A DNA stretch of 64,000 nucleotides from Massilia putida (GTDB taxonomy: Bacteria; Pseudomonadota; Gammaproteobacteria; Burkholderiales; Burkholderiaceae_D), in contig NZ_CP019038.1 in assembly GCF_001941825.1 (NCBI RefSeq), positions 5,828,001 to 5,892,000 on the forward strand, written 5' to 3'. Under the pieces are notes generated by a model. That model saw only the letters and a program-made list of their open reading frames with translations. It ran no database searches and was not told the origin of the DNA. The position numbers and the translations under genes are program-made. Below, piece by piece: positions 35,245 through 53,153 of this stretch. Each line of letters starts with the position of its first letter. The stretch's first letter is position 1.

Positions 35245-35278
35245 GCGTCCGCATTGAAACCATGCGGACGCGTCTTTT
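35245..35278 (+). terminator. Rho-independent terminator closing the EPS locus
   Basis: GCGTCCGCA (35245-35253) pairs perfectly with TGCGGACGC (35263-35271) across a nine-base loop and is followed by a T-rich tract (GTCTTTT). It lies just after the manC stop. Confidence 0.8.
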
Positions 35279-35352
35279 CCGCGAGTCTACAGTGCGGGTG
35301 GCCGCGCGCATGCGGCATACAATGCATCGTCAGAACCCATCGGGGAAACATC

Positions 35353-36063
35353 ATGAAGACGATCATTGCGGCCGGCGTCCTGGGCGCGGCCCTGGCCGGC
35401 GTCGGCGGCACGGCGGCGGCAGGCGACATCATCGGCGGTTCCGCTCTGCTGGACGCGAGCAGCCACGCCCAGCTGGAACGCTGGCTCGGCGCCGGCGAAT
35501 TCAACCTCAGCAATGTGTACACCTTGCACCCCGGCGATACGTCGGCCGCCTTCCATGCCGGCGCGGACGGGAAGGGCGCGACCTTCACCCTGTTCGACGT
35601 GACGAACGACGCCGGTGCCAGTTTCCTCGTGGGCGGCTACAACCCGCAAAGCTGGGCGTCGAACGAAGGGTGGCACGAGACCCAGCGCGACTGGCAACGC
35701 ACGGCCTTCCTGTTCAATATGACGACGCCGGCCGTGTACCGCCAGGTGCTGACCGACTACGTGCTGCCGAGCCAGGGCCTGCGCCAGACGTATAACGAGA
35801 CCGGCTACGGTCCCATCTTCGGCTCCGGGCCCGACCTGTACGTCAACGACGCCTTGACGGCGGCCACGTCGTGGCAACTGAGCTATGGCAATCCGGTGAA
35901 CGAGGGCCGCAGCATCATCGACGGCACCCTGCACGGCGAGATCGTGAAGCTGAACGCGATCGAAGTGTTCGCGATTTCGCCTGTGCCCGAACCCGGCGCG
36001 GCGGCCATGCTGCTGGCCGGCCTCGGCATGGTGGGCGCGGCGGTGCGCAGGCGCAAATTGTAG
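35353..36063 (+). CDS. PEP-CTERM protein with a TLDc-like domain
   Basis: The 236-residue secreted protein has a signal peptide (IIAAGVLGAALAGVGGTAAA). It ends in the PEP-CTERM sorting tail: VPEPGAAAMLLAGLGMVGAA followed by basic RRRKL. It should therefore be exported and processed by the exosortase encoded upstream. The central region (WLGAGEFNLSNVYTLHPGD, FHAGADGKGATFTLFDV, FLVGGYNPQSW, RTAFLFNMTT) follows the pattern of TLDc domains (W, then short strands, GGY/W and an FLF strand), known mainly from eukaryotic oxidation-resistance proteins. The domain call is by eye. ATG 35353 follows a GGGGAAA site; it starts about 75 bases after the EPS terminator. Confidence 0.78.
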   Translation: MKTIIAAGVLGAALAGVGGTAAAGDIIGGSALLDASSHAQLERWLGAGEFNLSNVYTLHPGDTSAAFHAGADGKGATFTLFDVTNDAGASFLVGGYNPQSWASNEGWHETQRDWQRTAFLFNMTTPAVYRQVLTDYVLPSQGLRQTYNETGYGPIFGSGPDLYVNDALTAATSWQLSYGNPVNEGRSIIDGTLHGEIVKLNAIEVFAISPVPEPGAAAMLLAGLGMVGAAVRRRKL

Positions 36064-37566: not shown

Positions 37567-40548
37567 ATGAAACCTATGCACTCCCCAGGACGCATGACCG
37601 TGCTCGCGGCCCTGCTGGCGGCCCTGTCGGCACGCGTGTTCGCCGCGCCCGGCGGCGTCGTCATCAGCCAGGTCTACGGCGGCGGCGGTAACGCCGGCGC
37701 CACCTACAAGAACGACTTCATCGAGCTGCTGAACACGGGCGACACGGCCATCACCCTGACCAACTGGAGCGTGCAATACGCGTCGGCCACGGGCACCGCG
37801 TGGCAAGTGACGAAGCTGCCGGCGAGCGTGACGCTGGCAGCGGGCCAATACTACCTCGTGCACGAGGCCCTGGGTGGCGGCGGCAGCGTCGCCCTCACGC
37901 CGGATGCCAGCGGCACCATCCCGATGAGCGCGACGGCCGGCAAGGTCGCGCTCGTCAACACGACGACGGCGCTGGCGGGCAGCAAGCCGGTCGACAACGT
38001 CGTCGACCTCGTCGGCTTCGGCACCACCGCCAGCTATTACGAAGGCTCGGGCCCGACGGCGGCGCCGTCGAACACGCTGGCCGTGCTGCGCAAGAATAAC
38101 GGCTGCCTGGACAGCAACGACAACAGCAGCGACTTCGTCACGGGCGCGGCAAGCCCACGCAACACGGGCAGCGACCGCGTGTCGTGCAGCGGCGCAGCGC
38201 TGCCGCAGCCGATCGTGCTGGCGTGCCCGGGCAGCGTGGGCGTCGACGTGGGCGCGGGCACGACCGCGCCGCTGCAGGCGAGCGATGCCGACAGCCTCGT
38301 CAACAGCGCCGTCATCAGCAAGGGCGCCGTCGCCGGCATCAGCCTGACCGGCTTCACGGCCGCCACCTTTGATCACCGCATGGCCACCGCCAACCTCGTC
38401 GTCGACGCGAGCCTGCCGGCCGGCACGTATCCGGTCGAGATCACGTTCGCCAACGACGCGAGCCAGAGCGCCAGCTGCACCGTCAACGTGGCCGTCAACG
38501 GCATCGTCAAGATCCCGCAGATCCAGGGCAGCGGCCTGACGAGCCCGTACGTGAACACGGTGCAGTCGACCACCGGCGTCATCACGAAGAAGCTGGGCAG
38601 CGGCTTCTACATCCAGGATCCCCAGGGCGACGGCGATCCGAACACGTCCGACGCCATCTTCGTGTTCGGCGCGTCCACGGCCGCCAAGGAAGGCGACCTC
38701 GTGCGCGTGACGGGCACCGTGACGGAATTCACGCCGAGCGGTGCCAAGCGCTCGTACACGGAACTGAAGGACGTCAGCGCGGTGTCCGTCCTCAGCAGCG
38801 GCAACACGATTCAGCCCGTCAACATTGACCTGCCGGCCGAACTGAGCCACTACGAAGGCATGCTCGTGCGCTTCGCCAATCCGCTGACCGTCAACGGCAA
38901 CAGCTATCTGGGCGACCGCGGCGAGCTCGTGCTGGCCAACGGGCGCCGCGAAACGCCGACGAACCGGTATCGTGCCGGCACGGTGGAAGCGAACGCGCTG
39001 ATCGCCGCCAACGCGCAAAACATGGTGGTGCTGGACGACGGCATCTTCACGGTGCCGGCGCACATCCCGTACCTGGCAGCCGATAAGACCGTGCGCGCCG
39101 GCGACACGGTGACGGACCTCGTCGGCGTGCTCGACTTCGGCGCCATCGGCGGGGGCGGCGGCTGGTACAAGCTGCAGCCGACCGCGACGCCCGTGTTCAG
39201 CCGTACGAACGCGCGCGAGGATGCGCCGACCGTGGCCGCCGGCAACGTGCGCGTGGCCAGCGCCAACGTGCTGAACTTCTTCACCACGTTCACGGACGGC
39301 ACCGACGCCTGGGGCCATACGGGGCAGGGCTGCACCATCGGCTCGTCCGCGCCGTCCAAGAGCAATTGCCGCGGCGCCGACAACATCACCGAGTTCAACC
39401 GCCAGCGCGACAAGATCGTCGACGAGCTGAAGGCGATGAACGCCGACGCCGTCGGCCTGATGGAAATCCAGAACAACGGCGACGTCACGGTGGGCTACCT
39501 CGTCGACGCGCTGAACCAGGCGATCGGCGCGCCGACGCCGACATATGCGTACGTGGCGAAACCGGCCGCGACGGGCACGGACGCGATCCGCGTCGCGATG
39601 ATCTATAAACCGGCCGTGCTTGAGCCGGTGGGCGGCGCGCTGTCGGACGGCGACGCCGTCAACAACCGCCCGCCGATGGCCCAGACGTTCAAGGTCAAGG
39701 CCAACGGCGCGAAGTTCTCGCTGATCGTCAACCACCTGAAATCGAAGGGCGGCTGCGGCGGCGCGGGCGCCGGCGACACGGACAGCGGCGACGGCCAGGG
39801 TTGCTGGAACGCCACCCGCATCCGGCAGGCCCAGCGCCTGTTCAACTATTTCATCCCGACCGTCGTGGCAGCCGCCGGCGACCCGGACGTGCTGGCCGTG
39901 GGCGACTTCAACTCGTACGGCCACGAAGACCCGATCGCGTTCCTGACGGACAACGGCATGGTCAACGAACTGGAGCGCTTCGTGCGTCCGAACGGCACCC
40001 CGTATTCCTACGTGTTCGACGGCCAGAGCGGCTATCTCGACCATGCGCTGGCCAGCAGTGCGCTGGATCCGCAAGTGGCCGGCGTGAGCGAGTGGCACAA
40101 CAATGCGGACGAGCCGGACGCGATCGACTACAACCTGGGCGACACGGCCGACGACCCGTACGTGAACAATCCGTTCCGCGCGTCGGACCACGATCCGGTC
40201 GTCGTGAGCCTGAACCTGGCGCCGGCCTTCGTCGACGTCACCGGCAGCGTGAAGATCGTGCCGGGCGCACTCGGCTACAACCGCGTCACCGGCAAATTCA
40301 CCGGCAGCGTGGCGTTCACGAACACGAGCGGCGCGCCGCTGTCAGGCCCGCTGCAATACGTGCCGCAGGGCTTGCCGGCCGGCGTCACGCTCGACAACAA
40401 GAGCGGCGACTTCAACGGCGCGCCATATGTGACCCTGCCGGGCAGCGGGCTGGCGGCGGGCGCGACCGTGACCGTGTCGCTGACCTTCACCAACCCGGCC
40501 AAGACGAATATCACGTTCACGTCGAAACTGTATGCCGGCACTTTTTAA
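37567..40548 (+). CDS. Large secreted ExeM/NucH-type endonuclease
   Basis: The 993-residue exported protein has a signal peptide (VLAALLAALSARVFA) and an N-terminal lamin-tail domain (GGVVISQVYGGGGNAGATYKN...FIELLNTG, residues ~28-150). A middle OB-fold region follows (TGVITKKLGSGFYIQDP). The endonuclease/exonuclease/phosphatase domain (residues ~550-880) has VASANVLNFFTTF, the catalytic Glu in LMEIQNNG, VNHLKSKGG, AVGDFNSYG and SDHDPVVV. A final beta-sandwich ends with GTF and lacks a PEP-CTERM tail. ExeM/NucH proteins degrade extracellular DNA and modify biofilms. Release may depend on a type II-like system such as the one at 43.6-53 kb (inference). Confidence 0.88.
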   Translation: MKPMHSPGRMTVLAALLAALSARVFAAPGGVVISQVYGGGGNAGATYKNDFIELLNTGDTAITLTNWSVQYASATGTAWQVTKLPASVTLAAGQYYLVHEALGGGGSVALTPDASGTIPMSATAGKVALVNTTTALAGSKPVDNVVDLVGFGTTASYYEGSGPTAAPSNTLAVLRKNNGCLDSNDNSSDFVTGAASPRNTGSDRVSCSGAALPQPIVLACPGSVGVDVGAGTTAPLQASDADSLVNSAVISKGAVAGISLTGFTAATFDHRMATANLVVDASLPAGTYPVEITFANDASQSASCTVNVAVNGIVKIPQIQGSGLTSPYVNTVQSTTGVITKKLGSGFYIQDPQGDGDPNTSDAIFVFGASTAAKEGDLVRVTGTVTEFTPSGAKRSYTELKDVSAVSVLSSGNTIQPVNIDLPAELSHYEGMLVRFANPLTVNGNSYLGDRGELVLANGRRETPTNRYRAGTVEANALIAANAQNMVVLDDGIFTVPAHIPYLAADKTVRAGDTVTDLVGVLDFGAIGGGGGWYKLQPTATPVFSRTNAREDAPTVAAGNVRVASANVLNFFTTFTDGTDAWGHTGQGCTIGSSAPSKSNCRGADNITEFNRQRDKIVDELKAMNADAVGLMEIQNNGDVTVGYLVDALNQAIGAPTPTYAYVAKPAATGTDAIRVAMIYKPAVLEPVGGALSDGDAVNNRPPMAQTFKVKANGAKFSLIVNHLKSKGGCGGAGAGDTDSGDGQGCWNATRIRQAQRLFNYFIPTVVAAAGDPDVLAVGDFNSYGHEDPIAFLTDNGMVNELERFVRPNGTPYSYVFDGQSGYLDHALASSALDPQVAGVSEWHNNADEPDAIDYNLGDTADDPYVNNPFRASDHDPVVVSLNLAPAFVDVTGSVKIVPGALGYNRVTGKFTGSVAFTNTSGAPLSGPLQYVPQGLPAGVTLDNKSGDFNGAPYVTLPGSGLAAGATVTVSLTFTNPAKTNITFTSKLYAGTF

Positions 40549-41253: not shown

Positions 41254-41366
41254 GGGGTGGTCTTATTTATTCTTTAAACATATGAATTTCAAATAGAAAT
41301 CATATTGTTCAGCGAAGTTTGCTTGGTGCATATTCGATCCTGTTGTCGCCGAGACAAGGATCTACG

Positions 41367-42056
41367 ATGCGCGCGCATGTCCTCGTGGTCGACCCCGACC
41401 CCTTCGTTCGCCAGTTGCTGGAACTGAACCTGACCCGTGCCGGCCATCGCGTCGAGCTGTGCACGGACGCCGAGTCGGCGCTCGGCGCGATCGGCGCCGG
41501 CCCGCCCGACATGCTGCTGCTGGAATGGGACTTGCCCGGCCAGTCGGGCGAGGCGCTGATCCGGCGCCTGCACGCGCAGGCGCGCACGCATGACCTGACG
41601 ATCATCATGGTGTCCGCCCGGACCGGGGAGCACGACAAGATCCTCGCGCTGGAATCCGGCGCCGACGACTATCTCACCAAGCCGTTCAACCCGCGCGAGC
41701 TGCTGGCGCGCATGCAGGCCGTGCTGCGCCGGCGCGTGCCGCACGGGGCCGTCGACGCCGTGCAGATGGCGGGCCTGCGCCTCGATCCGCACACGCAGCG
41801 CGTCGTGGCCGGGACGCGCCGGGTGGCGCTCGGTCCCGTCGAATTCCGGTTGCTCAATTTCCTGATGCACCATCCGGAGCGCGTGCATACGCGTTCGCAA
41901 CTGCTGGACCAGGTCTGGGGCCGCCACGCCGTGCTCGACGAGCGCACGGTCGATGCCCACGTGGGGCGCCTGCGTCACGCGCTGCAGCCGAGCGGGCACC
42001 AGGAACGCATCGAGACCGTGCGCGGCACCGGCTACCGCTTCGTCGCCTGGTCTTGA
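41367..42056 (+). CDS. PhoB/OmpR-type response regulator with altered phosphoacceptor
   Basis: The 229-residue protein has an N-terminal receiver (residues 5-118) and a C-terminal winged-helix DNA-binding domain (VEFRLLNFLMHHPERVHTR, then DERTVDAHVGRLRHAL and VRGTGYRFV). Aligned by eye to PhoB, the phosphorylated Asp is Glu53 (LLLEWDLPG), the acidic pocket Asp10 is Pro10 (VVDPDPFVR) and the switch Thr is Ser. Lys in TKPFNP is kept. It may act without phosphorylation. The start ATG 41367 comes after AAGGATC; the upstream in-frame ATG at 41319 lacks a site. Its stop overlaps epsA (TTGA), so both are probably expressed together. Confidence 0.88.
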   Translation: MRAHVLVVDPDPFVRQLLELNLTRAGHRVELCTDAESALGAIGAGPPDMLLLEWDLPGQSGEALIRRLHAQARTHDLTIIMVSARTGEHDKILALESGADDYLTKPFNPRELLARMQAVLRRRVPHGAVDAVQMAGLRLDPHTQRVVAGTRRVALGPVEFRLLNFLMHHPERVHTRSQLLDQVWGRHAVLDERTVDAHVGRLRHALQPSGHQERIETVRGTGYRFVAWS

Positions 42057-42826
42057 GCGTGGACCCCGTCGTCATCCTCAGCCGCCAGGAGCAGGAATAC
42101 CTGCTGTGCGCCATCGAGTCCGGCTTGCGCGTGGCGAACCGGCGCCAGTTCTTCCTGTGGACCCAGGGCCAGGTGCAGGCGCTGCTGCCGCATCAGGTGC
42201 TCGTCGGCCTCGAACTCGGACCGGGCGGGGCGCTGGCGCGGCTGGAATGCGTGCATGGCACCGTGCTGGCGCCGGGCGCGCAGCAGACGTTGACGGATGC
42301 GCACGACGGCCTGGCGCTGCGCATCGCGCGCCATTGCGTGCGGGGAGGGAGACTGCCGGTGCTGGCCGATTTCGGCGCGGCCGGGCGGCAGCCGCTGGAG
42401 GGCTTGCGCGACGAAGTCGGGCAGATGGGATTCGACAGCGTGCTCGTGCACGGCACCGGACCGACGAGCGGGGGCGGCAGCGTGTTCGTGCTGTTCGGCT
42501 TGGCCGCGCGGCCGGACGCGCGCCATGCCTATTTTCTGGAATTGCTGCTGCCGCACCTGCACCTGGCGCTGGAACGGCTGCCGGGTAGCGGCATCGCCGC
42601 GGGGGCGGCGCCGGCCCGTCCGCTGAGCGCGCGCGAGGCCGAGATCGTCGGCTGGCTGCGGGCCGGGAAGAGCAATGACGAGATGGGGAAGATCCTCGGG
42701 ATCAGCGGACTGACCGTCAAGAACCATCTGCAGCGCATCTACCGCACGCTCGGCGTCAGCAACCGGGCGCACGCGCTGGCGCGCTGCATGGATTTGCGGC
42801 TGCTGGAGGATGATGCTGTCCAGTAG
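42053..42826 (+). CDS. epsA: EpsA-type LuxR-family transcriptional regulator of the EPS/exosortase system
   Basis: The 257-residue protein has a GAF-like or unclassified N-terminal domain (residues 1-175, EYLLCAIESGLRVANRRQFFLW). A C-terminal LuxR helix-turn-helix follows: LSAREAEIVGWLRAGKSNDEMGKILGISGLTVKNHLQRIYRTLGV. The architecture and the link to an XrtB locus match the EpsA family (TIGR03020). It probably regulates EPS genes; it is encoded about 7 kb downstream of manC rather than beside epsB. TTG 42053 overlaps the regulator upstream; GTG 42059 is an alternative. Confidence 0.85.
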   Translation: MSVDPVVILSRQEQEYLLCAIESGLRVANRRQFFLWTQGQVQALLPHQVLVGLELGPGGALARLECVHGTVLAPGAQQTLTDAHDGLALRIARHCVRGGRLPVLADFGAAGRQPLEGLRDEVGQMGFDSVLVHGTGPTSGGGSVFVLFGLAARPDARHAYFLELLLPHLHLALERLPGSGIAAGAAPARPLSAREAEIVGWLRAGKSNDEMGKILGISGLTVKNHLQRIYRTLGVSNRAHALARCMDLRLLEDDAVQ

Positions 42827-43575: not shown

Positions 43576-44019
43576 ATGTATCGTGTGCAGAATCAGGACA
43601 CCGCCGCGCGGGTCCGCCAAGCCGGTTTTACCCTGCTTGAACTTTTGGTAGTTATCGTTATCATCGGCCTCCTCGCGGCCTATGTCGGGCCCAAGTATTT
43701 TTCGCAACTGGGCAAGTCCGAGGTGACCGTCGCCAAGGCGCAGATCGAAGCGTTCGAAAAATCGCTGGACACCTATCGCCTCGACGTCGGCCGCTATCCC
43801 ACGACCGAGGAAGGCTTGAACGCACTGCTGACGGCCCCGCCCACGGCGGGCGCCAAGTGGAACGGTCCCTACCTCAAGAAAGGTGTCCCGCTCGATCCGT
43901 GGGGCCATGCCTACCAATACCGTGCGCCCGGCAGCAAGGGCGAGTACGAAGTCGTCTCGCTCGGCAAGGACGGCCAGCCGGGCGGTGAAGGCGAGAACGC
44001 CGACATCAGCTCTCAATAA
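43576..44019 (+). CDS. gspG: Major pseudopilin GspG-like
   Basis: The 147-residue protein has a short leader ending in a prepilin peptidase site (RQAG cut before FTLLELLVVIVIIGLL) with Glu5 present. The C-terminal GspG domain is typical: RYPTTEEGLNALLTAPP, WNGPYLKKGVPLDPWGHAYQYRAPG and YEVVSLGKDGQPGGEGENADI, including the acidic calcium-site region. This is the first gene of an eleven-gene operon. It is probably the main subunit of a short pseudopilus. A GGAG site precedes ATG 43576. Confidence 0.93.
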   Translation: MYRVQNQDTAARVRQAGFTLLELLVVIVIIGLLAAYVGPKYFSQLGKSEVTVAKAQIEAFEKSLDTYRLDVGRYPTTEEGLNALLTAPPTAGAKWNGPYLKKGVPLDPWGHAYQYRAPGSKGEYEVVSLGKDGQPGGEGENADISSQ

Positions 44020-44039
44020 GCGCTGCGTCTTCGGTTCCC

Positions 44040-45227
44040 ATGCAGTTCGCGGTCCGCACCCTCGCGCCCGACATGCGCATCGCCAGCGTGCTCGTCGACG
44101 CCCCGGACGAGGCGGACGCGCGTCGCCAGGTCGAAGCGCGCGGGCTGTTCGTCAGCGCCATCGAACCCGTGCACGCGCCACTGCTGCGCCGCCAGCGCGG
44201 CGGCAAGCTGTCGCTCGTCCTGTTCAGCCAGGAGCTGCTCGCGCTGCTGACGGCGGGCCTGGGCATCGTCGAAGGCCTGGAAGCCCTGCTGGAAAAGGAA
44301 GCCAGCCCCGCCACGCGGGGCGTGCTGGAACGGCTGCTGGCCGGCCTGCGCGAAGGCAAGCGCCTGTCCAGCGTGATGGCCGCGCAGCCCGCACTGTTCC
44401 CGCCGCTGTACGTCGGCATCGTGCGCGCGGCGGAAGGCACGAGCGACCTGCCGCGCGCGCTCGAACGCTATATCGAATACCAGCAGCGTATCGACACGGT
44501 GCGCGCCAAGGTCGTCAGCGCCTCGATTTATCCGGCGATCCTGCTGCTCGTGGGTGGCGGCGTGTCGGTTTTCCTGATGTCGTACGTCGTGCCGCGCTTC
44601 GCCGAGGTGTACCAGGGCGCGGGCCGCAACCTGCCGTGGATGTCGCGCCTGATGCTCGACTGGGGCCAGTTCGCGGGCCGCCATGCCGGCGCGCTGCTGA
44701 TCGGATTCGCGGCGACCGTCGCCATCGCCGCGTGGGCGATCCGGCGCACGTTGAAACGGGGCGGCGCCGCGCGCCTGCTGGCGAAACTGCCCGGCATCGG
44801 CGAGCGCGCCCGCATCTACGAACTCGCACGCCTGTACCTCACCCTGGGCATGCTGAACGAAGGCGGCATCACGCTCGTGACCGCGATCGACACCGTGCAG
44901 GGCATGGTCTCGCCCGGCGTGGCCGGCGGCTTGCGCGCCGCACGGGCCGCGATCGAGGCGGGCCGGCCGCTGTCCGACGCGTTCGAGGCGAACGGGCTCA
45001 CGACGCCGATCTCGCTGCGCATGCTGCGCGTGGGCGAGCGCACGGGCGCGATGGGCACGATGCTCACGCGCTCCGCCGCGTTCTACGACGGCGAGATCGG
45101 GCGCTGGATCGACCGCTTCACGCGTACGTTCGAACCGCTGCTGATGGCGGCCATCGGCCTCGTCGTCGGTGCCATCGTCGTGCTGCTGTACATGCCGATC
45201 TTCGACCTGGCCGGAGACATGTCGTGA
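44040..45227 (+). CDS. gspF: GspF/PilC-like inner-membrane platform protein
   Basis: The 395-residue protein has two GspF domains and three membrane helices (around residues 155-185, 215-235 and 365-390). Motifs include FSQELLALLTAGLGIVEGLEAL, AEGTSDLPRALERYIEYQ and its second-copy counterpart VGERTGAMGTMLTRSAAFYDGEIGRWIDRFTRTFEPLLMA, plus the ending VGAIVVLLYMPIFDLAGDMS. It anchors the ATPase and pseudopilus assembly at the inner membrane. It lies 20 bases after gspG, and its stop overlaps the GTG start of gspE. Confidence 0.93.
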   Translation: MQFAVRTLAPDMRIASVLVDAPDEADARRQVEARGLFVSAIEPVHAPLLRRQRGGKLSLVLFSQELLALLTAGLGIVEGLEALLEKEASPATRGVLERLLAGLREGKRLSSVMAAQPALFPPLYVGIVRAAEGTSDLPRALERYIEYQQRIDTVRAKVVSASIYPAILLLVGGGVSVFLMSYVVPRFAEVYQGAGRNLPWMSRLMLDWGQFAGRHAGALLIGFAATVAIAAWAIRRTLKRGGAARLLAKLPGIGERARIYELARLYLTLGMLNEGGITLVTAIDTVQGMVSPGVAGGLRAARAAIEAGRPLSDAFEANGLTTPISLRMLRVGERTGAMGTMLTRSAAFYDGEIGRWIDRFTRTFEPLLMAAIGLVVGAIVVLLYMPIFDLAGDMS

Positions 45228-46915
45228 ACGCGCCGGCCATCGTCCTCGATGCGGCCATGCTGACGCGCGCCCGCGCGCAGAGCCGGCAATCGCGCCGTTC
45301 GCTGGTCGAGGAACTGCAAGGCCTGTCCGGCCTGGAACCGCGCGAGATCGTGGGCCTGCTCGCGGAGCCGTTCGGTCTCACGGTGATGGAAACGCCGGAG
45401 ATGTTCGGCCAGCAGCCCGCGTTCGACCTGCTGCCGCTGGCGCAGGCGCTGGCGCGCCACTGCGTCCTGCTGCGCGCCGACGACAAGCGCCTGACGGGCG
45501 TGATCGCCGACCCGTTCGACCTGGACCTGCAGACGTGGCTGCAGGCCCAGGCCGGCGCGACGGCGGCAGCGCCGCTGCACCTGCGGCTCGCGCTGCAATC
45601 GGACATCCAGGCCTATCTCGGCAAGCACGAGGAATCCGCGCGCGCCGTCGACACGCTCGTCGGCGACAGCGGGGAGGGGCGGCGCGACGGCAAGAGCGCG
45701 ACCGTGCTGTCGTTCGCGTCCGTGTCGGAAGCCGCGAGCCCCGCCGTCAAGCTCGTGAACTCGACCTTGTACGACGCGCTGAAAGCCGGCGCGTCCGACA
45801 TCCACCTGGAGAGCACCGCGGGCGGCCTCGCCGTCAAATACCGCGTGGACGGCGTGCTCGATCACGCCGCGTCCGTCGGCGGCATCGAACTGGCGGAGCA
45901 CATCATCTCGCGCCTGAAAGTGCTGGCGGAACTGGACATCGCCGAGCGCCGCGTCCCGCAGGACGGCAGCTTCCGCGTCGAATCCGCCGGGCGCGACATC
46001 GATTTGCGGGTGTCGATCATGCCCAGCATCCACGGCGAGGACGCCGTCATCCGTATCCTCGACAAGCGCGCGATGATCGAGGCCTACGGCTCGCTCACCC
46101 TGGAAGCGCTGGGGTTCGACGCGCCGTCGCTGGCGACGCTCCGCATGCTCGCGCAGGAGGCGTACGGCATGCTGCTCGTGACGGGGCCGACGGGTTCCGG
46201 CAAGACGACCACGTTGTACGCGGCGCTGACCGAGATCCACAACGGCCGCGAAAAGATCATCACGATCGAGGACCCCGTCGAATACCAGCTGCCCGGCATC
46301 CTGCAGATCCCCGTCAACGAAAAGAAGGGCCTGTCGTTCGCGAAGGGCCTGCGTTCGATCCTGCGCCACGATCCGGACAAGATCATGGTGGGCGAGATCC
46401 GTGACCGCGAGACGGCGGAGATCGCGGTGCAGTCGGCGCTGACGGGCCACCTCGTGCTGACGACCGTCCACGCGAATAACGTGTTCGACGTGTTCGGGCG
46501 CTTCACGCACATGGGGATCGACCCGTACGCGTTCGTATCGGCGCTGAACGGCATCTGGGCGCAGCGCCTGATCCGCATGAACTGTCCGCGCTGCGCGGCG
46601 CAGTACACGCCGGGCGAGGCCGAGCTGTCATCCGCCCACCTGACGCGCGACGAAGTGCACGACTACGTCTTCATGCGCGGCGTCGGCTGCGGCGATTGCC
46701 GCGGCACCGGCTACAAGGGACGCCGCTCGATCGCCGAGATCCTGACCTTGAACGACGAGATCCGCGAACTGATCGTCGACAAGCAGCCGATCCGCCGCAT
46801 CAAGGCGGCGGCCGCCGCCAACGGCACGCGCAGCCTGCGTCTCGCGGCGCTGGACCTGGTCAAGCGCGGGGCCACGACGCTTGAGGAAATCCGGAGGGTC
46901 ACGCTGCATGCTTAG
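45224..46915 (+). CDS. gspE: GspE-type secretion/assembly ATPase
   Basis: The 563-residue hexameric ATPase powers pseudopilus assembly. An N-terminal GspE-N-like region (residues 1-130) precedes the ATPase core with Walker A GPTGSGKTTTLYAAL near 320, an Asp box, Walker B DKIMVGEIRDRETAEIA and the His box TGHLVLTTVHANN. A tetracysteine zinc motif (NCPRCAAQY...GCGDCRGTG) near 450-495 matches GspE rather than most PilB types. The start is GTG 45224, eight bases after GGAG and overlapping the gspF stop; the longer open frame upstream is a shadow in gspF. Confidence 0.93.
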   Translation: MNAPAIVLDAAMLTRARAQSRQSRRSLVEELQGLSGLEPREIVGLLAEPFGLTVMETPEMFGQQPAFDLLPLAQALARHCVLLRADDKRLTGVIADPFDLDLQTWLQAQAGATAAAPLHLRLALQSDIQAYLGKHEESARAVDTLVGDSGEGRRDGKSATVLSFASVSEAASPAVKLVNSTLYDALKAGASDIHLESTAGGLAVKYRVDGVLDHAASVGGIELAEHIISRLKVLAELDIAERRVPQDGSFRVESAGRDIDLRVSIMPSIHGEDAVIRILDKRAMIEAYGSLTLEALGFDAPSLATLRMLAQEAYGMLLVTGPTGSGKTTTLYAALTEIHNGREKIITIEDPVEYQLPGILQIPVNEKKGLSFAKGLRSILRHDPDKIMVGEIRDRETAEIAVQSALTGHLVLTTVHANNVFDVFGRFTHMGIDPYAFVSALNGIWAQRLIRMNCPRCAAQYTPGEAELSSAHLTRDEVHDYVFMRGVGCGDCRGTGYKGRRSIAEILTLNDEIRELIVDKQPIRRIKAAAAANGTRSLRLAALDLVKRGATTLEEIRRVTLHA

Positions 46916-47729
46916 TGCCTTGAAATCGGGGTTCGGCCAGTCGCTGCGCATCGGCATCGCACCGGACGCGCTGGCGCTCGTGCGCACCAGCATCTGGCCG
47001 CACGAGCGCGCGCGCCTGCTGGGCCAGGTGGCGGCGTCCGGCAACGATCCGGTTTCGCTGGGCGCGGCCCTCGGCATGCTGCTCGGCGAGCACGACGTGG
47101 CCGGCCTGCCGGCGACGGTCGTGCTGTCCGACGATCTCGTGCGCCTGTGGCAGGTGACGCCGCCGGTCGGCGCGACGCGTCTCGCCGACCTGGAAGGGGC
47201 GGCCGCGCTGCGGTACCAGGCGCTGTTCGGGGGAAGCCTCGCCGGCTGGACCCTCAGCGCCGACTGGGACGCCGCGCGCCCGTTCCTCGCGGCCGCGCTG
47301 CCGCTGGCGCTGCTCGAACAGCTGACGGCGGCGGCGTCCAGCCAGCGTTTCACACTCGTCGAGATCGTGCCGCAATTCGTCGCCGCCATGAACCAGCACC
47401 GCCGCGTGCGCCGCGCGGGTGCGTGGTTCGGCGTCGTGCATGGCGGCGTGCTGTCCGTCGCCGCGTTCGACGGCGACTTGCTCGCCGCGGTGCGCACGGC
47501 GCCGATCCCCCCTGGCGCGGACCGCGACTGGCTCGAAGGCCACGTGGCGCGCGAGGCGCTGCGCGTGGGCCTGTCGCGTCCCGAGCGCCTGCAGCTGTGC
47601 GGCCCGGCGCCGACCGGCTGGGCGAGCAGCGCGGGCCGGCTGAAATTCGCCTGCACGCTGTTCGAGGACGAGACCGATCCGTTGTGGCCCGATTGCGCGC
47701 GGCTCGCGCTGACGGGGAGGGCGCCATGA
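46908..47729 (+). CDS. PilM/GspL-like cytoplasmic protein of the secretion operon
   Basis: This 273-residue protein lies where a PilM or cytoplasmic GspL homologue is expected. It has an actin-like pattern (SLRIGIAPDALALVRT, TVVLSDDLVRLWQVTPP, LVEIVPQFVAAMNQH, GAWFGVVHGGVLSVAAFDG), but no exact phosphate loop can be assigned. No membrane helix is seen. It starts at ATG 46908 inside the gspE stop region (overlap of eight bases) with a GGAGGG site. Function is inferred from order: link between the ATPase and the PilN-like protein. Confidence 0.7.
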   Translation: MLSALKSGFGQSLRIGIAPDALALVRTSIWPHERARLLGQVAASGNDPVSLGAALGMLLGEHDVAGLPATVVLSDDLVRLWQVTPPVGATRLADLEGAAALRYQALFGGSLAGWTLSADWDAARPFLAAALPLALLEQLTAAASSQRFTLVEIVPQFVAAMNQHRRVRRAGAWFGVVHGGVLSVAAFDGDLLAAVRTAPIPPGADRDWLEGHVAREALRVGLSRPERLQLCGPAPTGWASSAGRLKFACTLFEDETDPLWPDCARLALTGRAP

Positions 47730-48277
47730 AAAAAGTCCGCATCGATTTCGCGCCGCCCAGCCTCGCCCGCGCGTGGCACCGCACGCCGCGCGGGACGTGG
47801 AGCCTGTTGATCGTCGTACTCGGGCTGGCGGGAGCGCTCGGCAGCAGCATCGCGCAATACCGCAGCTTGCAGCGCGTGGAGGCGCAACGCACGGCGCAGG
47901 CGGCCCAGGCGCAGGCGCGCGCGGTCGCACGCGCGCCCGTCGCCGCGCCCGTGCGCGCCGTACCGCCCGCGCAGGCCAGCGCCGTGAACGCGTCCGTGCA
48001 GCAGCTGAACGTGCCGTGGCGCGGCCTGCACGACGCGGTGCAGGCCGCGACGCCCGCCACCATCGCCCTGCTGGCGCTGGAACCGGACGCGAAGAAGAGC
48101 AGCGTGCGCATCACGGCGGAAGCGAAGAACAGCGACGACATGATCGCTTACGTCGAGGCGCTGCAGCACATCGACTGGTTCACCACCGTCCTGCTGGCGC
48201 GCCACGAGATCAACGAGCAGGACCCGAACCGGCCGATCCGCTTCCAGGTCGATGCCCAGTGGAGGGCCGCGCCATGA
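47726..48277 (+). CDS. PilN-like inner-membrane protein
   Basis: The 183-residue bitopic protein has a short basic cytoplasmic N-terminus (KKVRIDFAPPSLARAW), one membrane helix near residues 25-42, an Ala/Gln-rich coiled coil (RVEAQRTAQAAQAQARAVA) and a small alpha/beta periplasmic domain (IALLALEPDAKKSSVRITAEAKNSDDMIAYVEAL). That matches PilN/GspL-periplasmic architecture. ATGA overlap with the PilM-like gene upstream and with the PilO-like gene downstream suggests equal production of the alignment-complex subunits. Confidence 0.75.
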   Translation: MKKVRIDFAPPSLARAWHRTPRGTWSLLIVVLGLAGALGSSIAQYRSLQRVEAQRTAQAAQAQARAVARAPVAAPVRAVPPAQASAVNASVQQLNVPWRGLHDAVQAATPATIALLALEPDAKKSSVRITAEAKNSDDMIAYVEALQHIDWFTTVLLARHEINEQDPNRPIRFQVDAQWRAAP

Positions 48278-48855
48278 AGACGACCTTCGCATCGCCCATG
48301 CTGCGCCTGCGCTTGATGCTGCTGCGCGCGAATCCGATCGTGCTGGCCGCCGCCATCCTGATGCTCGTCTTGACCGGCGGCCTCGCGTGGACGCTGAGGA
48401 CCGTGTGGACGATGGAACGCGCGCAGGAAGCGTACGCCGCGCAGGCCAGGCAGAAAACGCCGGCCGCCGCGGCGTCCGCACCGGCGCCTGAGCCCGCGCC
48501 CGCGCAGGCGCCCGACAACCTGGCCGCGTTCTACGGCGCGCTGGGCGAGCGGGGCGGCGCCGAGCAGCAGGTCAAGACGCTGTTCGGCCTCGCCGCGAAA
48601 TCCGGCCTCGTGCTGCGCCAGGGCGAGTACAAGGCGGGCCACGACCGCAACGCGCACGTCTACACGTATCAGGTGAACCTGCCCGTGAAAGGCAGTTACC
48701 AGGCGATCTGGCAGTTCGCCATGGCGGCGCTGCGCGCGATCCCGTTCGCGTCGCTGGACGAGATCAGCTTCCACCGCGACGCCATCGGCGATGCGACGGT
48801 GGAAGCGCGCCTGCGCCTGACCTTGTACCTGCGCGACGGGACGGCGCAGCCATGA
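48274..48855 (+). CDS. PilO/GspM-like inner-membrane protein
   Basis: The 193-residue bitopic protein has one membrane helix near residues 23-42 (VLAAAILMLVLTGGLAWTL). A short coiled coil and an Ala/Pro linker follow, and then a ferredoxin-like periplasmic domain (FYGALGERGGAEQQVKTLFGLAAKSGL, then VYTYQVNLPVKGSYQAIWQF). The layout fits PilO or GspM. It is coupled to both neighbours by ATGA overlaps. The family call rests on architecture and gene order rather than strong motifs. Confidence 0.72.
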   Translation: MKTTFASPMLRLRLMLLRANPIVLAAAILMLVLTGGLAWTLRTVWTMERAQEAYAAQARQKTPAAAASAPAPEPAPAQAPDNLAAFYGALGERGGAEQQVKTLFGLAAKSGLVLRQGEYKAGHDRNAHVYTYQVNLPVKGSYQAIWQFAMAALRAIPFASLDEISFHRDAIGDATVEARLRLTLYLRDGTAQP

Positions 48856-49445
48856 GGACAGGACCGATCAAGCCGCGCCACGCCATCCTCGGCCTGGCCC
48901 TCGTCGCGGCGGGCCTGCTCGCCGCGTTCGGCGACAAGGCGCCGGCCGGCGGCATCGCCGAACCTGTCGTGCGTCCGGCCGCGCAGGCGGTGCTCGTGCG
49001 CACGCCCGCGCCCGCGCCCGCGCGCGCGCCGGTAGCACAGCCGGCCGCCAAGCCCGCGGATGCGGGACAGGCCGTGCTCGCGCTGGTGTCGCGCGACGTG
49101 CTGATCGGCGAGCCCGATGCCGCGTTCGGCCAGGGACAGAACGGCGCCGGTCCGTTCACGCACCAGGACTGGACGCCGCCGCCCCCGCCGCCGCAGCAGC
49201 AGCCCGCACCGCCGCCACCGCCGCCCACCGCGCCGCCGCTGCCGTTCACCTTCATCGGCAAGTCGGTCGGCGACGGCGTCTGGGAGGTCTACCTGGCCCG
49301 CGGCGCCCGCACGTATGTCGTGCGCGACAAGGGAGAGGTGATCGACGGGACGTACCGGGTCGATGCCATCACCCCGCCGGTCCTGACCCTGACTTACCTG
49401 CCGCTGAACCAGGTTCAGCAGCTCAATATTGGAGTATTCGATTGA
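48852..49445 (+). CDS. PilP/GspC-like proline-rich periplasmic protein
   Basis: The 197-residue protein has an N-terminal hydrophobic segment (ILGLALVAAGLLAAFG) and long Ala/Pro linkers, including a run of prolines near residues 112-130. The C-terminal domain is a small beta domain (LPFTFIGKSVGDGVWEVYLARG, then YVVRDKGEVIDGTYRVD and LTYLPLNQVQQLNIG) resembling the HR domain of GspC/PilP, which contacts the secretin. Database entries for this kind of protein in Burkholderiales sometimes read secretion system X translation initiation factor, which looks like a misnomer. Its stop overlaps the secretin start (TTGA). Confidence 0.7.
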   Translation: MRTGPIKPRHAILGLALVAAGLLAAFGDKAPAGGIAEPVVRPAAQAVLVRTPAPAPARAPVAQPAAKPADAGQAVLALVSRDVLIGEPDAAFGQGQNGAGPFTHQDWTPPPPPPQQQPAPPPPPPTAPPLPFTFIGKSVGDGVWEVYLARGARTYVVRDKGEVIDGTYRVDAITPPVLTLTYLPLNQVQQLNIGVFD

Positions 49446-51553
49446 TTGCTCGCCCAACTCTGGCCCGCCGCCTGCTCCCGGCCGTACTGGTCATCCTGCT
49501 GTCCGGCTGCGCAGCACAAATGGCTTACCGCGAGGGGAACGAGCTCGTGGCGCAGGACAAGGTCGAGGCGGGGCTCGTGAAGTACCAGGAGGCGGTGGCC
49601 GCCGATCCGTCCAACGTCCAGTACAAGGCCGCTTACCTGCGGGCGCGCGACGCCGCGACGAACCGCCTGCTGCCGCAGGCCGACCGTGAACTGGCCGACG
49701 GCAAACCCGAACTCGCGGTGGCGGATTACCGCCGCGTGCTGGCGATCGATCCTCTCAACGAACGCGCGCGCGCCGGCCTGCGCCAGGTCGACGCGGACCG
49801 CCGCCACGGCGTGCTGTTGCAGGAAGCGCAGACCGCGCTGGAACGCAAGGACTACGACGCGGCGAAAACCAAGCTGACCGCGATCCTGACCGAGCGCCCG
49901 ACCTACGAACCGGCGCGGCAGATGCTGGCCGACGTGAACGAGAAGATCGCGGCCAACTCGCCCGAGGCGGCGCTGGCGGCCGCGTTCCGCGCGCCCATCA
50001 GCCTGGAATTCCGCGACGCGCCCATCAAGCAGATCTTCGAAGTGATCGCACGCCACTCGGGCCTGAACTTCCTGTTCGACAAGGACGTCAAGACGGACCA
50101 GCGCGCGTCCGTCTTCCTCAAGAACAGCACGGTGGAAGCGGCCGTCTACTATCTCCTGATGACGAACCAGCTGGAACGGCAGGTCATGGACGGCAACACG
50201 ATCCTGATCTACCCGAACATCGCGGCCAAGCAGAAGGAATACCAGGAGATGACGGTCAAGACCTTCTACCTGGCCAATGCGGACGCCAAGACCGTCGGCA
50301 ACACCCTGAAGACCATCCTGAAGTCGCGCGACGTCGTGGTGGACGAGAAGCTCAACCTCGTGATCCTGCGCGACAGCCCGGAAGCCGTGAAGCTGGCGTC
50401 GCAGCTGGTGGCGCTGCAGGACGTGCCCGAGGCCGAGGTGATGCTCGACGTCGAGGTGCTGGAAGTGCAGCGCAACCGCCTGCTCGACCTGGGCATCGAC
50501 TGGCCCACGAGCCTCTCGTTCGCGCCGCTGCAGGCGGCGGGCGGCGCCGCGATCACGGTCGACCAGCTGCGCCACCTGAACGGCAGCACGATCGCCGTCG
50601 GCGGCGTCTCCGGCGCCGTCACGGCCAGCAAGACGGACGGCGATTCCGACACCCTGGCCGCGCCCCGCATCCGCGTGCGCAACAAGGAAAAGGCCAAGGT
50701 CGTCATCGGCGACAAGCTGCCGACCATCACGACGACCATTTCGTCGGGCGTGGGCGGCTTCGCGTCCGAGTCGGTGAACTACGTCGACGTGGGCCTCAAG
50801 CTCGACGTCGAGCCGACGATCTACCTGAACAACGAGGTCGGCATCCGCATCTCGCTCGAAGTGAGCAATCTCGTCGACACCGTCACGACGAAGGGCGGCA
50901 CGACGGCCTACCGCATCGGCACGCGCTCGGCGTCCACGATGCTGCAGCTGAAGGATGGCGAGAACCAGGTGCTGGCGGGCCTGATCAAGAACGAGGACCG
51001 TTCCAGCGCCAAGAGGCTGCCCGGCGTGGGCGATTTGCCCATCCTCGGCCGGCTGTTCGGCAGCCAGCAGGACACCCGCAACAAGACCGAGGTCGTGCTG
51101 TCGATCACGCCGCACCTGATCCGCAACCTGCAGCGGCCGCCGGCATCGAGTTCCGAATTCAGCGCCGGCACGGAGGCCAGTTTCCGGCGCCGTCCCGACA
51201 CGACGGCGCGCGCGCCGGTGCAGGTGCCGGCGCAGGGCGCGCGCGCGCAGCCGGGCGCCCAGCCCGCGCGCGCGGCTGCGCCTGCGCAACCCGCGCAGCC
51301 GCCGTCCGCCGCCGCGCAGCCGCCGGTGTCGGCGCCGCTGCCGGTGATCGAGGAGGGCAGGATGGTGCCGGCCACCAGCGTCGGCGGCATCGGCACGCTG
51401 CCGGCGGCGCCGGCGTCAAGCTCGCCGTCGGAACTGCCGTCCGCGCCCGCGGTCGAGATCACGCCGCTGCCGCAGCCGGAGCCGACGCCCATGCCCCAGC
51501 CGGCCAACCAGCCCGTGCCCGCGTCGCAGGCCGCGTTCCCGAACCAGAAATGA
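49442..51553 (+). CDS. gspD: GspD/MshL-like secretin lipoprotein with N-terminal TPRs
   Basis: The 703-residue outer-membrane channel has a lipoprotein signal (VILLSGC) and three TPR-like helical repeats (residues ~25-165, [24 protein letters not shown]). Secretin N-domains follow ([49 protein letters not shown]). The core secretin domain ends near residue 565 with [29 protein letters not shown] and [12 protein letters not shown]. The last 130 residues are a Pro/Ala/Gln-rich tail, unusual in length. TTG 49442 overlaps the previous stop, with GGAG eight bases upstream. Self-piloting by its own lipid anchor is likely, as no GspS is encoded. Confidence 0.9.
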
Positions 51554-52029
51554 AGGCCCGGCGCCCGCGCGGCTTCACCCTGATCGAGCTGCTCGTCACG
51601 CTGGCGATCCTGGCCCTGGTCGGGACGCTCGTGGTGCCGACCGCGCAGATCGCGCTGCAGCGGCGCCACGAGCAGGAACTGCGCGTCGCGCTGCGCGAGA
51701 TCCGCGCCGCCATCGACGCGTACAAGAAGGCCGGCGACGAGGGCCGCGTGGCGCGCGCGGCCGGCGCCAGCGGCTATCCGCCGAAACTGGAGGTGCTGGT
51801 CGAGGGCGTGCCGGACCAGCGCAGCCCGAAGAAGGCGAAGATCTATTTTCTGCGCCGTCTGCCACGCGACCCGTTCAACGGCGACGCGGATCTGAAAGAT
51901 GCCGAGACGTGGGGCAAGCGCAGCTACGCCAGCGAGGCGGACGAACCGAAGGAGGGCGACGACGTCTATGATGTCTACTCGACCTCCGGCAAGGCCGGCC
52001 TGAACGGCATCCCTTACAACCGCTGGTGA
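51550..52029 (+). CDS. Pseudopilin (GspG/GspH-like) 2
   Basis: The 159-residue protein has a prepilin leader KARRPRG followed by [17 protein letters not shown], with Glu5 and a hydrophobic helix. The body is polar ([28 protein letters not shown]) with [12 protein letters not shown] and a C-terminal [22 protein letters not shown] that recalls the end of GspG. It is probably a minor pseudopilin. ATGA overlap with the secretin gene; four bases separate it from the next pseudopilin. Confidence 0.85.
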
Positions 52030-52033
52030 GCAT

Positions 52034-52414
52034 ATGGACAGGACACGCAAGCGGGGCTTCACCCTGATCGAACTGCTGGTCGTGCTGGGCATCGTGGCGC
52101 TGCTGCTCACGCTCGCGGTGCCGCGCTTCTTCCCGAAGATCGACAGCACCAAGGAGACCATCCTGGCCGAGAACCTGCGCAATACGCGCGCCGTGATCGA
52201 CCAGTTCCATGAAGATACCGGGCGCTATCCGGAATCGCTGCAGCAACTCGTCGAGAAAAAATACCTGCCGGCGCTGCCGTTCGATCCGATCGCGGAAAGC
52301 GACTCGGCCTGGGTCGTCGTGCCGCCGGAGGAAGGCGACAAGGGCGGCGTCTACACCATCCGCAGCGGCGCGCCGGGCACGGGGCGCAACGGCAAGCCCT
52401 ATGCGGAGTGGTAA
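52034..52414 (+). CDS. Pseudopilin (GspG-like) 3
   Basis: The 126-residue protein has leader MDRTRKRG followed by [22 protein letters not shown], with Glu5. The globular part (ILAENLRNTRAVIDQFHEDTGRYPESLQQLVEKKYLP, then GVYTIRSGAPGTGRNGKPYAEW) is GspG-like but shorter. It is probably another minor pseudopilin. The next gene starts inside its 3' end (14-base overlap). Confidence 0.85.
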   Translation: MDRTRKRGFTLIELLVVLGIVALLLTLAVPRFFPKIDSTKETILAENLRNTRAVIDQFHEDTGRYPESLQQLVEKKYLPALPFDPIAESDSAWVVVPPEEGDKGGVYTIRSGAPGTGRNGKPYAEW

Positions 52415-53153
52415 GGCGCTCCGGCGCGAGGGCGGCTTCACCTACCTCGGCCTGATCATCCTCGTGACCGTGATCGGCCTGGTCGGCGCGGCCACGCTGA
52501 AAGTCGACGCGCTGCTGCGCCGCGCGCAGGCCGAGAAAGACCTGCTGGAGACCGGCGCCGCGTTCAGCGAAGCGCTGCGCACCTATGCCGAGGCGACGCC
52601 CAAGGGCCAGCCGTCGCAGCCGCCGTCGCTGCAGGAGCTGTTGAAGGATCCGCGTTTTCCCGGCGTGCGGCGGCACCTGCGCAAGATCTTCATCGACCCG
52701 CTGACGGGCAAGGCCGAGTGGGGCATCGTGTGGGCCAATCCCGGCGACCGGCGCGGCGTGCTGGCCGTGTACAGCCTGTCCAAGGCGAAGCCGCTGAAGG
52801 TGGCGAATTTCGACGCGCGCTTTTCCGGCTTCGAGAACAGGCAGCACATCTCGGACTGGAAGTTCGTGGCGACTGGGCAGGGGCTCGTGCAGGGACAGGT
52901 GCTGGCGCAAGGGAAGCCCCAGGCGCAGATCCAGCCGTCGCTGTTCCAGCCGCCGTCCGGGGGCGTGCCGGCCGAGCCGCCGTCGCTGTTTCCCGGACGG
53001 GGCGCGGCGCAGTCGGATGCGGCGCCGCCCGTGCCGCCGATGCAACCGGCAGACGCGCCGCCGGCCGAGAAGGCCGAGGGCGACGACAGGGATGCGAAGG
53101 AGGCGAAGGACGGCGAGCCGGCGCCGCCGTCCGCCGCGGGCGACGGCCGCTAG
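52401..53153 (+). CDS. Pseudopilin-like protein 4 lacking Glu5, with a proline-rich tail
   Basis: The 250-residue protein has a prepilin-like start (KALRREGG, then FTYLGLIILVTVIGLVGAATL). Position 5 is Gly rather than Glu, a change also found in tip pseudopilins such as GspK. The globular domain spans about residues 30-150 (LLETGAAFSEALRTYAEATPKG, HISDWKFVATGQGLVQGQVLAQG). Residues ~165-250 are Pro/Ala/acidic low-complexity sequence. ATG 52401 was chosen because it places the cleavage site ten residues in. It ends the operon and converges with murJ, four bases apart. A tip or cargo-recognition role is a guess. Confidence 0.78.
   Translation: MRSGKALRREGGFTYLGLIILVTVIGLVGAATLKVDALLRRAQAEKDLLETGAAFSEALRTYAEATPKGQPSQPPSLQELLKDPRFPGVRRHLRKIFIDPLTGKAEWGIVWANPGDRRGVLAVYSLSKAKPLKVANFDARFSGFENRQHISDWKFVATGQGLVQGQVLAQGKPQAQIQPSLFQPPSGGVPAEPPSLFPGRGAAQSDAAPPVPPMQPADAPPAEKAEGDDRDAKEAKDGEPAPPSAAGDGR

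Follow-up and report, generated by a model that had tools for sequence, protein, structure and literature searches.

The Pul/Oxp system of Geobacter and its link to OmpB reportedly have their original source in Mehta et al. 2006. In the available text of PMC3543383, OmpB is a multicopper oxidase exported by this 'Pul/Oxp' atypical type II secretion system (T2SS), and the Geobacteraceae Pul system, with its pseudopilins PulG, OxpG and TklG, is required for OmpB secretion and lies near cell-division and DNA-uptake genes. The accessible part of PMC10599522 repeats the link between the Geobacter system and OmpB. A literature search on GSU1777 found no publication, and for multicopper oxidases with T2SSs PMC3543383 was the only relevant publication found, among at least six listed. 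Among other machines, MSH loci are without a peptidase and many systems remain 'generic', according to the available portion of PMC6668835.

Here we analysed a 64-kb stretch of DNA (the window), which carries eleven ORFs on the plus strand at 43576-53153 in the order GspG, GspF, GspE, PilM/GspL-like, PilN-, PilO- and PilP-like, secretin and three minor pseudopilins (ps1-ps3). Judged from the ORF coordinates, nine of the ten junctions are overlapping or have a 4-bp gap, the extremes being a 14-bp overlap (ps2-ps3) and a 20-bp gap (G-F). Overlaps of 4 bp join F-E, M-N, N-O, O-P, P-D and D-ps1, with an 8-bp overlap at E-M and the 4-bp gap at ps1-ps2. ORFs, junctions and family matches agree with the eleven-gene, plus-strand operon with stop-start overlaps given in the preliminary description.

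The first ORF encodes a GspG-type major pseudopilin (P0001, 43576..44019) that has Glu5 and scores well above the equivalog cut-off (TIGR01710, 178.6 bits; cut-off 88.85). It is succeeded by a GspF/PilC-type inner-membrane platform protein (P0002, 44040..45227; PF00482 (T2SSF) 155 bits; TIGR02120 249.6 bits, below its cut-off of 424) and by a GspE/PilB-type assembly ATPase with a GTG start (P0004, 45224..46915; PF00437 (T2SSE) 397.5 bits), the latter assigned also on its motifs and its place in a tree. A motif scan found the Walker A, Asp-box and CxxC pairs of this ATPase intact and did not find the MshEN c-di-GMP motif core. The next protein, P0005 (46908..47729), has no Pfam or NCBIfam match, and those of its best sequence matches for which a source was given point to Massilia; its AlphaFold2 model (pLDDT 88.1) matched cyto-EpsL (1yf5, 2.5e-11) and PilM (5eox, 4.7e-11) in Foldseek, and it is predicted to be an actin-fold platform protein similar to PilM and cyto-GspL. 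The PilN-like protein (P0006, 47726..48277) matches PF05137 at 25.3 bits (cut-off 22.8). The PilO-like protein (P0007, 48274..48855) is named by position, its Geobacterales counterpart matching PF04350 PilO at 35.6 bits, and the protein in the PilP/GspC position (P0008, 48852..49445) by position and conserved gene order, with no family match in the window operon or in that of Geobacterales.

The secretin (P0009, 49442..51553, TTG start as called) is identified by PF00263 (125.3 bits), PF03958, PF07660 and its tree placement as a TPR lipoprotein secretin. By eye, its N-terminus holds a lipobox-like LLSGC; its TPR matches are weak, with none above cut-off, and its C-terminal part is a Pro-rich tail with no cohesin domain. 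Both ps1 (P0010, 51550..52029; PF07963 34.1 bits; supported by the family alignment) and ps2 (P0011, 52034..52414; PF07963 33.9 bits) have Glu5. By contrast with these, ps3 (P0012, 52401..53153), a GspK-like tip candidate, is without Glu5, as were all of its relatives in a motif count (0/64 readable sequences with Glu5), and the absence is as in GspK; the structure model of ps3 was too poor for use (pLDDT 50.6). It is likely that ps3 and the PilM-like protein are the counterparts of GspK and cyto-GspL. The operon proteins match the GspE, GspF, GspD, PilB, PilQ and MshL equivalog or subfamily models below their cut-offs, and among the eleven proteins no family above cut-off names a GspH, GspI, GspJ, GspK, GspC, GspL or GspM. 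The operon contains no major pilin, no retraction ATPase and no prepilin peptidase, two such peptidases being encoded elsewhere in the genome. For the machine that was first proposed, 'minimal' is too strong a word: the place of the GspH/I/J/K set is not empty, as the operon has three minor pseudopilins, one of them Glu5-less like GspK. The gene list in the preliminary description appears to resemble the one that subsystem annotation labels 'predicted secretion system X', a name under which our literature search found no publication.

Phylogenies of the ATPase and the secretin place the operon apart from its better-known relatives. In an unrooted ATPase tree of 65 rows, in which the program flagged long branches, the Burkholderiales and Geobacterales sequences form one clade (100/100), separate from GspE (100/99), PilB (99/96) and MshE (100/100), with the MshE rows as its nearest neighbours. 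A secretin tree of 52 rows, built on a MAFFT alignment, contains the same Burkholderiales and Geobacterales split at 100/100; here the Geobacterales rows do not stand next to those of Burkholderiales but are nested within them, and MshL is represented by a single row on a long branch. Neither protein of the clade falls with the GspE/GspD, PilB/PilQ, MshE/MshL or RcpA references. The operon has the GspG-type major pseudopilin of a canonical T2SS, with its ATPase and secretin standing outside the T2SS groups, as they do outside the MSHA and type IVa pilus groups. The suggestion of a T2SS/type IV pilus mosaic distinct from both is supported; these trees, which would have refuted it had both proteins fallen inside T2SS or MSHA clades, put neither of them there.

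The system is widespread. At E <= 1e-80 we found matches in 58 of 62 genomes of the genus and in 53 of 120 genomes (36/78 genera) of a Burkholderiales order sample. A class sample gave matches in 6/185 genomes at the same threshold, two of the six from its own order, and within its class the system seems to be concentrated in Burkholderiales. For the order survey 60 loci were fetched, and two without a secretin call (L225, L226) were left out of the count of gene orders; 49 of the remaining 58 have the order F-E-(M)-N-O-P-D-ps1-ps2 and three more have it rotated. This conservation indicates that the arrangement is not due to chance. Genes in these loci were called by a codon-usage script, which places start codons and small genes only approximately and has produced some artefactual fusions or gene losses (M merged with N in L019); the gene labels derive from profiles built on these same loci. 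The operon is therefore not a local oddity, and belongs to a class that is common in Burkholderiales and shared with Geobacterales, the metal-reducing relatives of Geobacter.

Some members of the class carry additional features. A C-terminal cohesin domain is present in 27 of the 46 secretins scanned (A5; for example L144:8467-10860). We rejected this domain as a defining feature of the clade, as it is found in 27/46 secretins only and is missing from the window secretin. No publication was found in a literature search for the combination of secretin, cohesin domain and pseudopilin. At six loci (L031, L032, L154, L155, L180 and L181) the operon is rearranged, such that the secretin and pseudopilins precede GspF-GspE; a large RHS protein is often encoded alongside, and one of these proteins terminates in a CDI-type toxin domain. 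Trichlorobacter thiogenes (G063, L147) has two secretins of this type, separated by about 8 kb; most other operon genes are missing around the second in the sequence that was read.

Long matches to the secretin profile A1 were found in all eight Geobacterales genomes, at 401-537 bits (the match in G060 being split in two), with other secretins there scoring no higher than 175 bits. The Geobacterales operon has the order F-E-M-N-O-P-D-ps1-ps2, the whole of it as called in 6/8, and is without adjacent GspG and ps3. The MshEN motif core is present in 6/6 Geobacterales ATPases versus 5/95 from Burkholderiales. Four conserved genes follow the operon in 7/8 loci; in L144 these read as FtsE (ABC_tran), FtsX, an EnvC-like protein (named by position) and an S41/CtpA-type protease. 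The FtsE/FtsX-type neighbours fit a Pul system near cell-division genes. The Geobacterales loci appear to match the Pul/Oxp system, an indirect identification made through PMC3543383 and the neighbouring genes in eight genomes that do not include G. sulfurreducens.

The 7.5-Mb host genome also encodes a complete T2SS locus (L039), MSHA-type (L040) and Tad (L041) loci, a pilMNOPQ/T4aP-type locus (L042) and a PilD-type peptidase (L043), all named from a reading of their translations. Moreover, there is a second copy of the system (L019, C3:1688000-1707900), whose secretin is 57% identical to that of the window copy. No GspG was found beside this second copy, nor beside several other extra copies, and the major pseudopilin may therefore be shared between copies. 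On the same strand as the second copy, the cluster encodes a 3798-aa TPS/filamentous-haemagglutinin protein, ShlB, an ExbB fusion, a porin and CsgE/F/G. Read in order, TpsA/TpsB, ExbB-fusion, ExbD, TonB and small curlin-like and porin genes stand before the copy, and csgE, csgF, csgG and a curlin-repeat gene follow it (L019:6190-9013 and L152, C3:1688000-1727800). Linkage to curli genes was seen at 1/106 loci, namely L019; a similar set in G174 (L193, L274), read by eye except for a domain-checked ShlB, had no curli gene that we could see. A search by title and abstract start for CsgG with T2SS linkage in Massilia found no relevant publication among the best 10 of 23.

In the window, two possible regulators lie upstream of the operon on the plus strand, a PhoB-like response regulator (41319..42056; TIGR02154 274.8 bits, below the cut-off of 296.2) and an EpsA-type LuxR regulator (42053..42826; TIGR03020 161.5 bits, below the cut-off of 170); EpsA-type regulators are near the system at 15/106 loci. 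The next gene downstream, on the opposite strand, is a MurJ homologue, named by reading and synteny. A PEP-CTERM TLD-domain protein is encoded close to the operon at 35254-36063, the upstream half of the window contains genes that read by eye as exopolysaccharide and exosortase genes, and Rfam identifies one tRNA in the 64 kb.

We next consider the exported proteins encoded nearby as candidate cargo, which in some genomes may include copper oxidases or giant proteins. Clustering of the neighbours up to five genes away at 106 loci gave RHS-type proteins at 10, S8 proteases at 10, NucH at 9 and M4 proteases at 4. The S8 and NucH neighbours mostly reflect Massilia synteny, all nine NucH loci being from Massilia; a chitinase (L212) and an astacin (L205), both domain-checked, lie beside other copies. 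In a count that was not chosen by neighbourhood, 12 SpvB matches were found in 9/120 genomes, and four of them lie within 15 kb of a clade secretin, at three copies in two genomes. Four more belong to three genomes whose copies of the system lie elsewhere, and four are in genomes without it. Under a simple Poisson model with no correction for relatedness, 0.14 would be expected, with P of 1.4e-5 for four and 4e-4 for three. By a crude signal-peptide rule, exported proteins make up 34/119 of the first two upstream neighbours versus 28/150 further out (OR 1.74, p 0.06), and 62/238 when the four near ranks including downstream are taken (p 0.11). Given this weak enrichment, we claim no general linkage. 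The idea that the machine serves proteins encoded next door is thus well supported for some copies, those with RHS proteins or a multicopper-oxidase island, is weak in general (p = 0.06) and is unproven for the window copy. An ExeM/NucH-type extracellular nuclease is encoded 3 kb upstream of the window operon (37567..40548, plus strand; NF033681 547 bits). With its linkage confined to Massilia, we rejected NucH as proven cargo; that the window copy exports degradative enzymes, with this nuclease as a candidate, is conceivable though rather doubtful.

The strongest linkage is to the multicopper-oxidase island, in which a protein of 1678-2059 aa is encoded together with three multicopper oxidases, a small protein, an S8 protease, SCO1/SenC, and a cytochrome c with a periplasmic-binding protein; domains were checked in L158 and L265 and the other loci were compared by BLAST. 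It lies near the system in 4/4 genomes where it was seen and is directly joined to it in two. In the latter (G096 and G079), noticed because their extra system copies were fetched, the island immediately precedes the system on the same strand, and in L158 SCO1 ends 3 bp before GspF; G079 is 7% contaminated and its copies may not all belong to one organism. In G229 and G160, from two other families, it is about 14.5 kb upstream, again on the same strand. At E <= 1e-40 the second oxidase was found in 2/120 genomes, these same two, both times within 30 kb of the system, for which the chance is about 4e-4. In all four island-linked systems ps3 is followed by related response regulators, 62-65% identical to the one in L156, and the L156, L158 and L187 secretins form one clade (100/100); the island linkage may therefore be one inherited module and not a series of independent events. 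NCBIfam matches of the island oxidases are all far below cut-offs. At L265, L266 and L275-L278 the 1678-2059 aa protein is without a clear family and a histidine-kinase-like gene is nearby. A search of the host genome with the second oxidase of the island gave nothing at E <= 1e-40, and by that search OmpB-like cargo is therefore unavailable to the window copy.

Taken together, these sequence comparisons suggest that the operon encodes an Oxp/Pul-type, T2SS-like protein-secretion machine separate from the canonical T2SS, a reading to which we assign a probability of roughly 0.7. In such a machine the ATPase would drive assembly on the PilM/GspL-PilN-PilO-PilP platform, with GspG processed by a PilD-type peptidase encoded elsewhere and then polymerising into a short periplasmic pseudopilus. 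The pseudopilus would be primed by ps1-ps2-ps3, with ps3 at its tip, and folded exoproteins delivered by Sec or Tat would exit via the TPR lipoprotein secretin.

A machine for surface pili of an MSHA- or T4aP-like type, serving adhesion or motility, would account for the PilM/N/O/P-type platform and for the nearness of MshE in the unrooted ATPase tree. However, the operon is without a major pilin and a retraction ATPase, its major subunit is a GspG equivalog, its ATPase and secretin are outside PilB/PilQ and MshE/MshL, and MSHA-, T4aP- and Tad-type machines have loci of their own in the genome, which makes this explanation unlikely. We consider equally improbable a diverged paralogue of the canonical T2SS with ordinary cargo: the GspG score, the Glu5-less tip-like pseudopilin and the T2SS cargo types (chitinase, proteases) beside some copies would be expected of it, but both trees exclude the operon from the GspE/GspD groups with full support for the split, and the same genome retains a complete T2SS locus. 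Least probable is an accessory machine for DNA uptake or envelope division. FtsE/FtsX-type genes adjoin the Geobacterales copies, MurJ adjoins the window copy, and cell-division and DNA-uptake genes lie nearby in the available text of PMC3543383; yet MurJ and FtsEX are neighbours in particular clades only, both being absent from most of the order-survey loci, and that same text ties the Geobacter system to protein secretion.

Beyond the secretion reading of this one operon, we tentatively propose a separate exporter class, belonging to the type IV filament superfamily and often present in Burkholderiales and Geobacterales. Cargo seems to differ among its paralogous copies, which appear linked variously to multicopper oxidases, RHS proteins, proteases and adhesin/amyloid assemblies, and each copy might be dedicated to its own linked set: complexes of multicopper oxidases for redox reactions on extracellular metals, RHS proteins, or two-partner adhesins together with curli-type assemblies. 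Capture of cargo or of partners is a possible role for the C-terminal cohesin domains of many secretins. With this analysis, what was a label for something of unknown function gains a clade definition, a published relative and cargo that can be tested. The island in Massilia and two other families offers a hypothesis for the route by which multicopper oxidases, which may oxidise metals outside the cell, arrive at the surface. Moreover, surveys based on classical models may miss or mislabel a second common exporter of Burkholderiales.

Compared with the MSHA pilus, the operon likewise has its ATPase, platform and secretin genes in a single locus from which the peptidase is missing (available text of PMC6668835), whereas it falls in separate clades in both trees and is without an MshA-type pilin, MshM and MshN. 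With the canonical T2SS it shares a GspG-type major pseudopilin, a GspE/F-type motor and platform, a secretin and a Glu5-less minor pseudopilin; it differs in its separate ATPase and secretin clade, in a PilM/N/O/P-type platform that replaces GspL/M/C, and in that family models name no GspH/I/J. Relative to the Geobacter Pul/Oxp system, the Burkholderiales operons add GspG and ps3, are mostly without the MshEN core and have other neighbours, but they have in common the F-E-M-N-O-P-D-ps1-ps2 order, the TPR lipoprotein secretin and a single ATPase and secretin clade with the Geobacterales operon.
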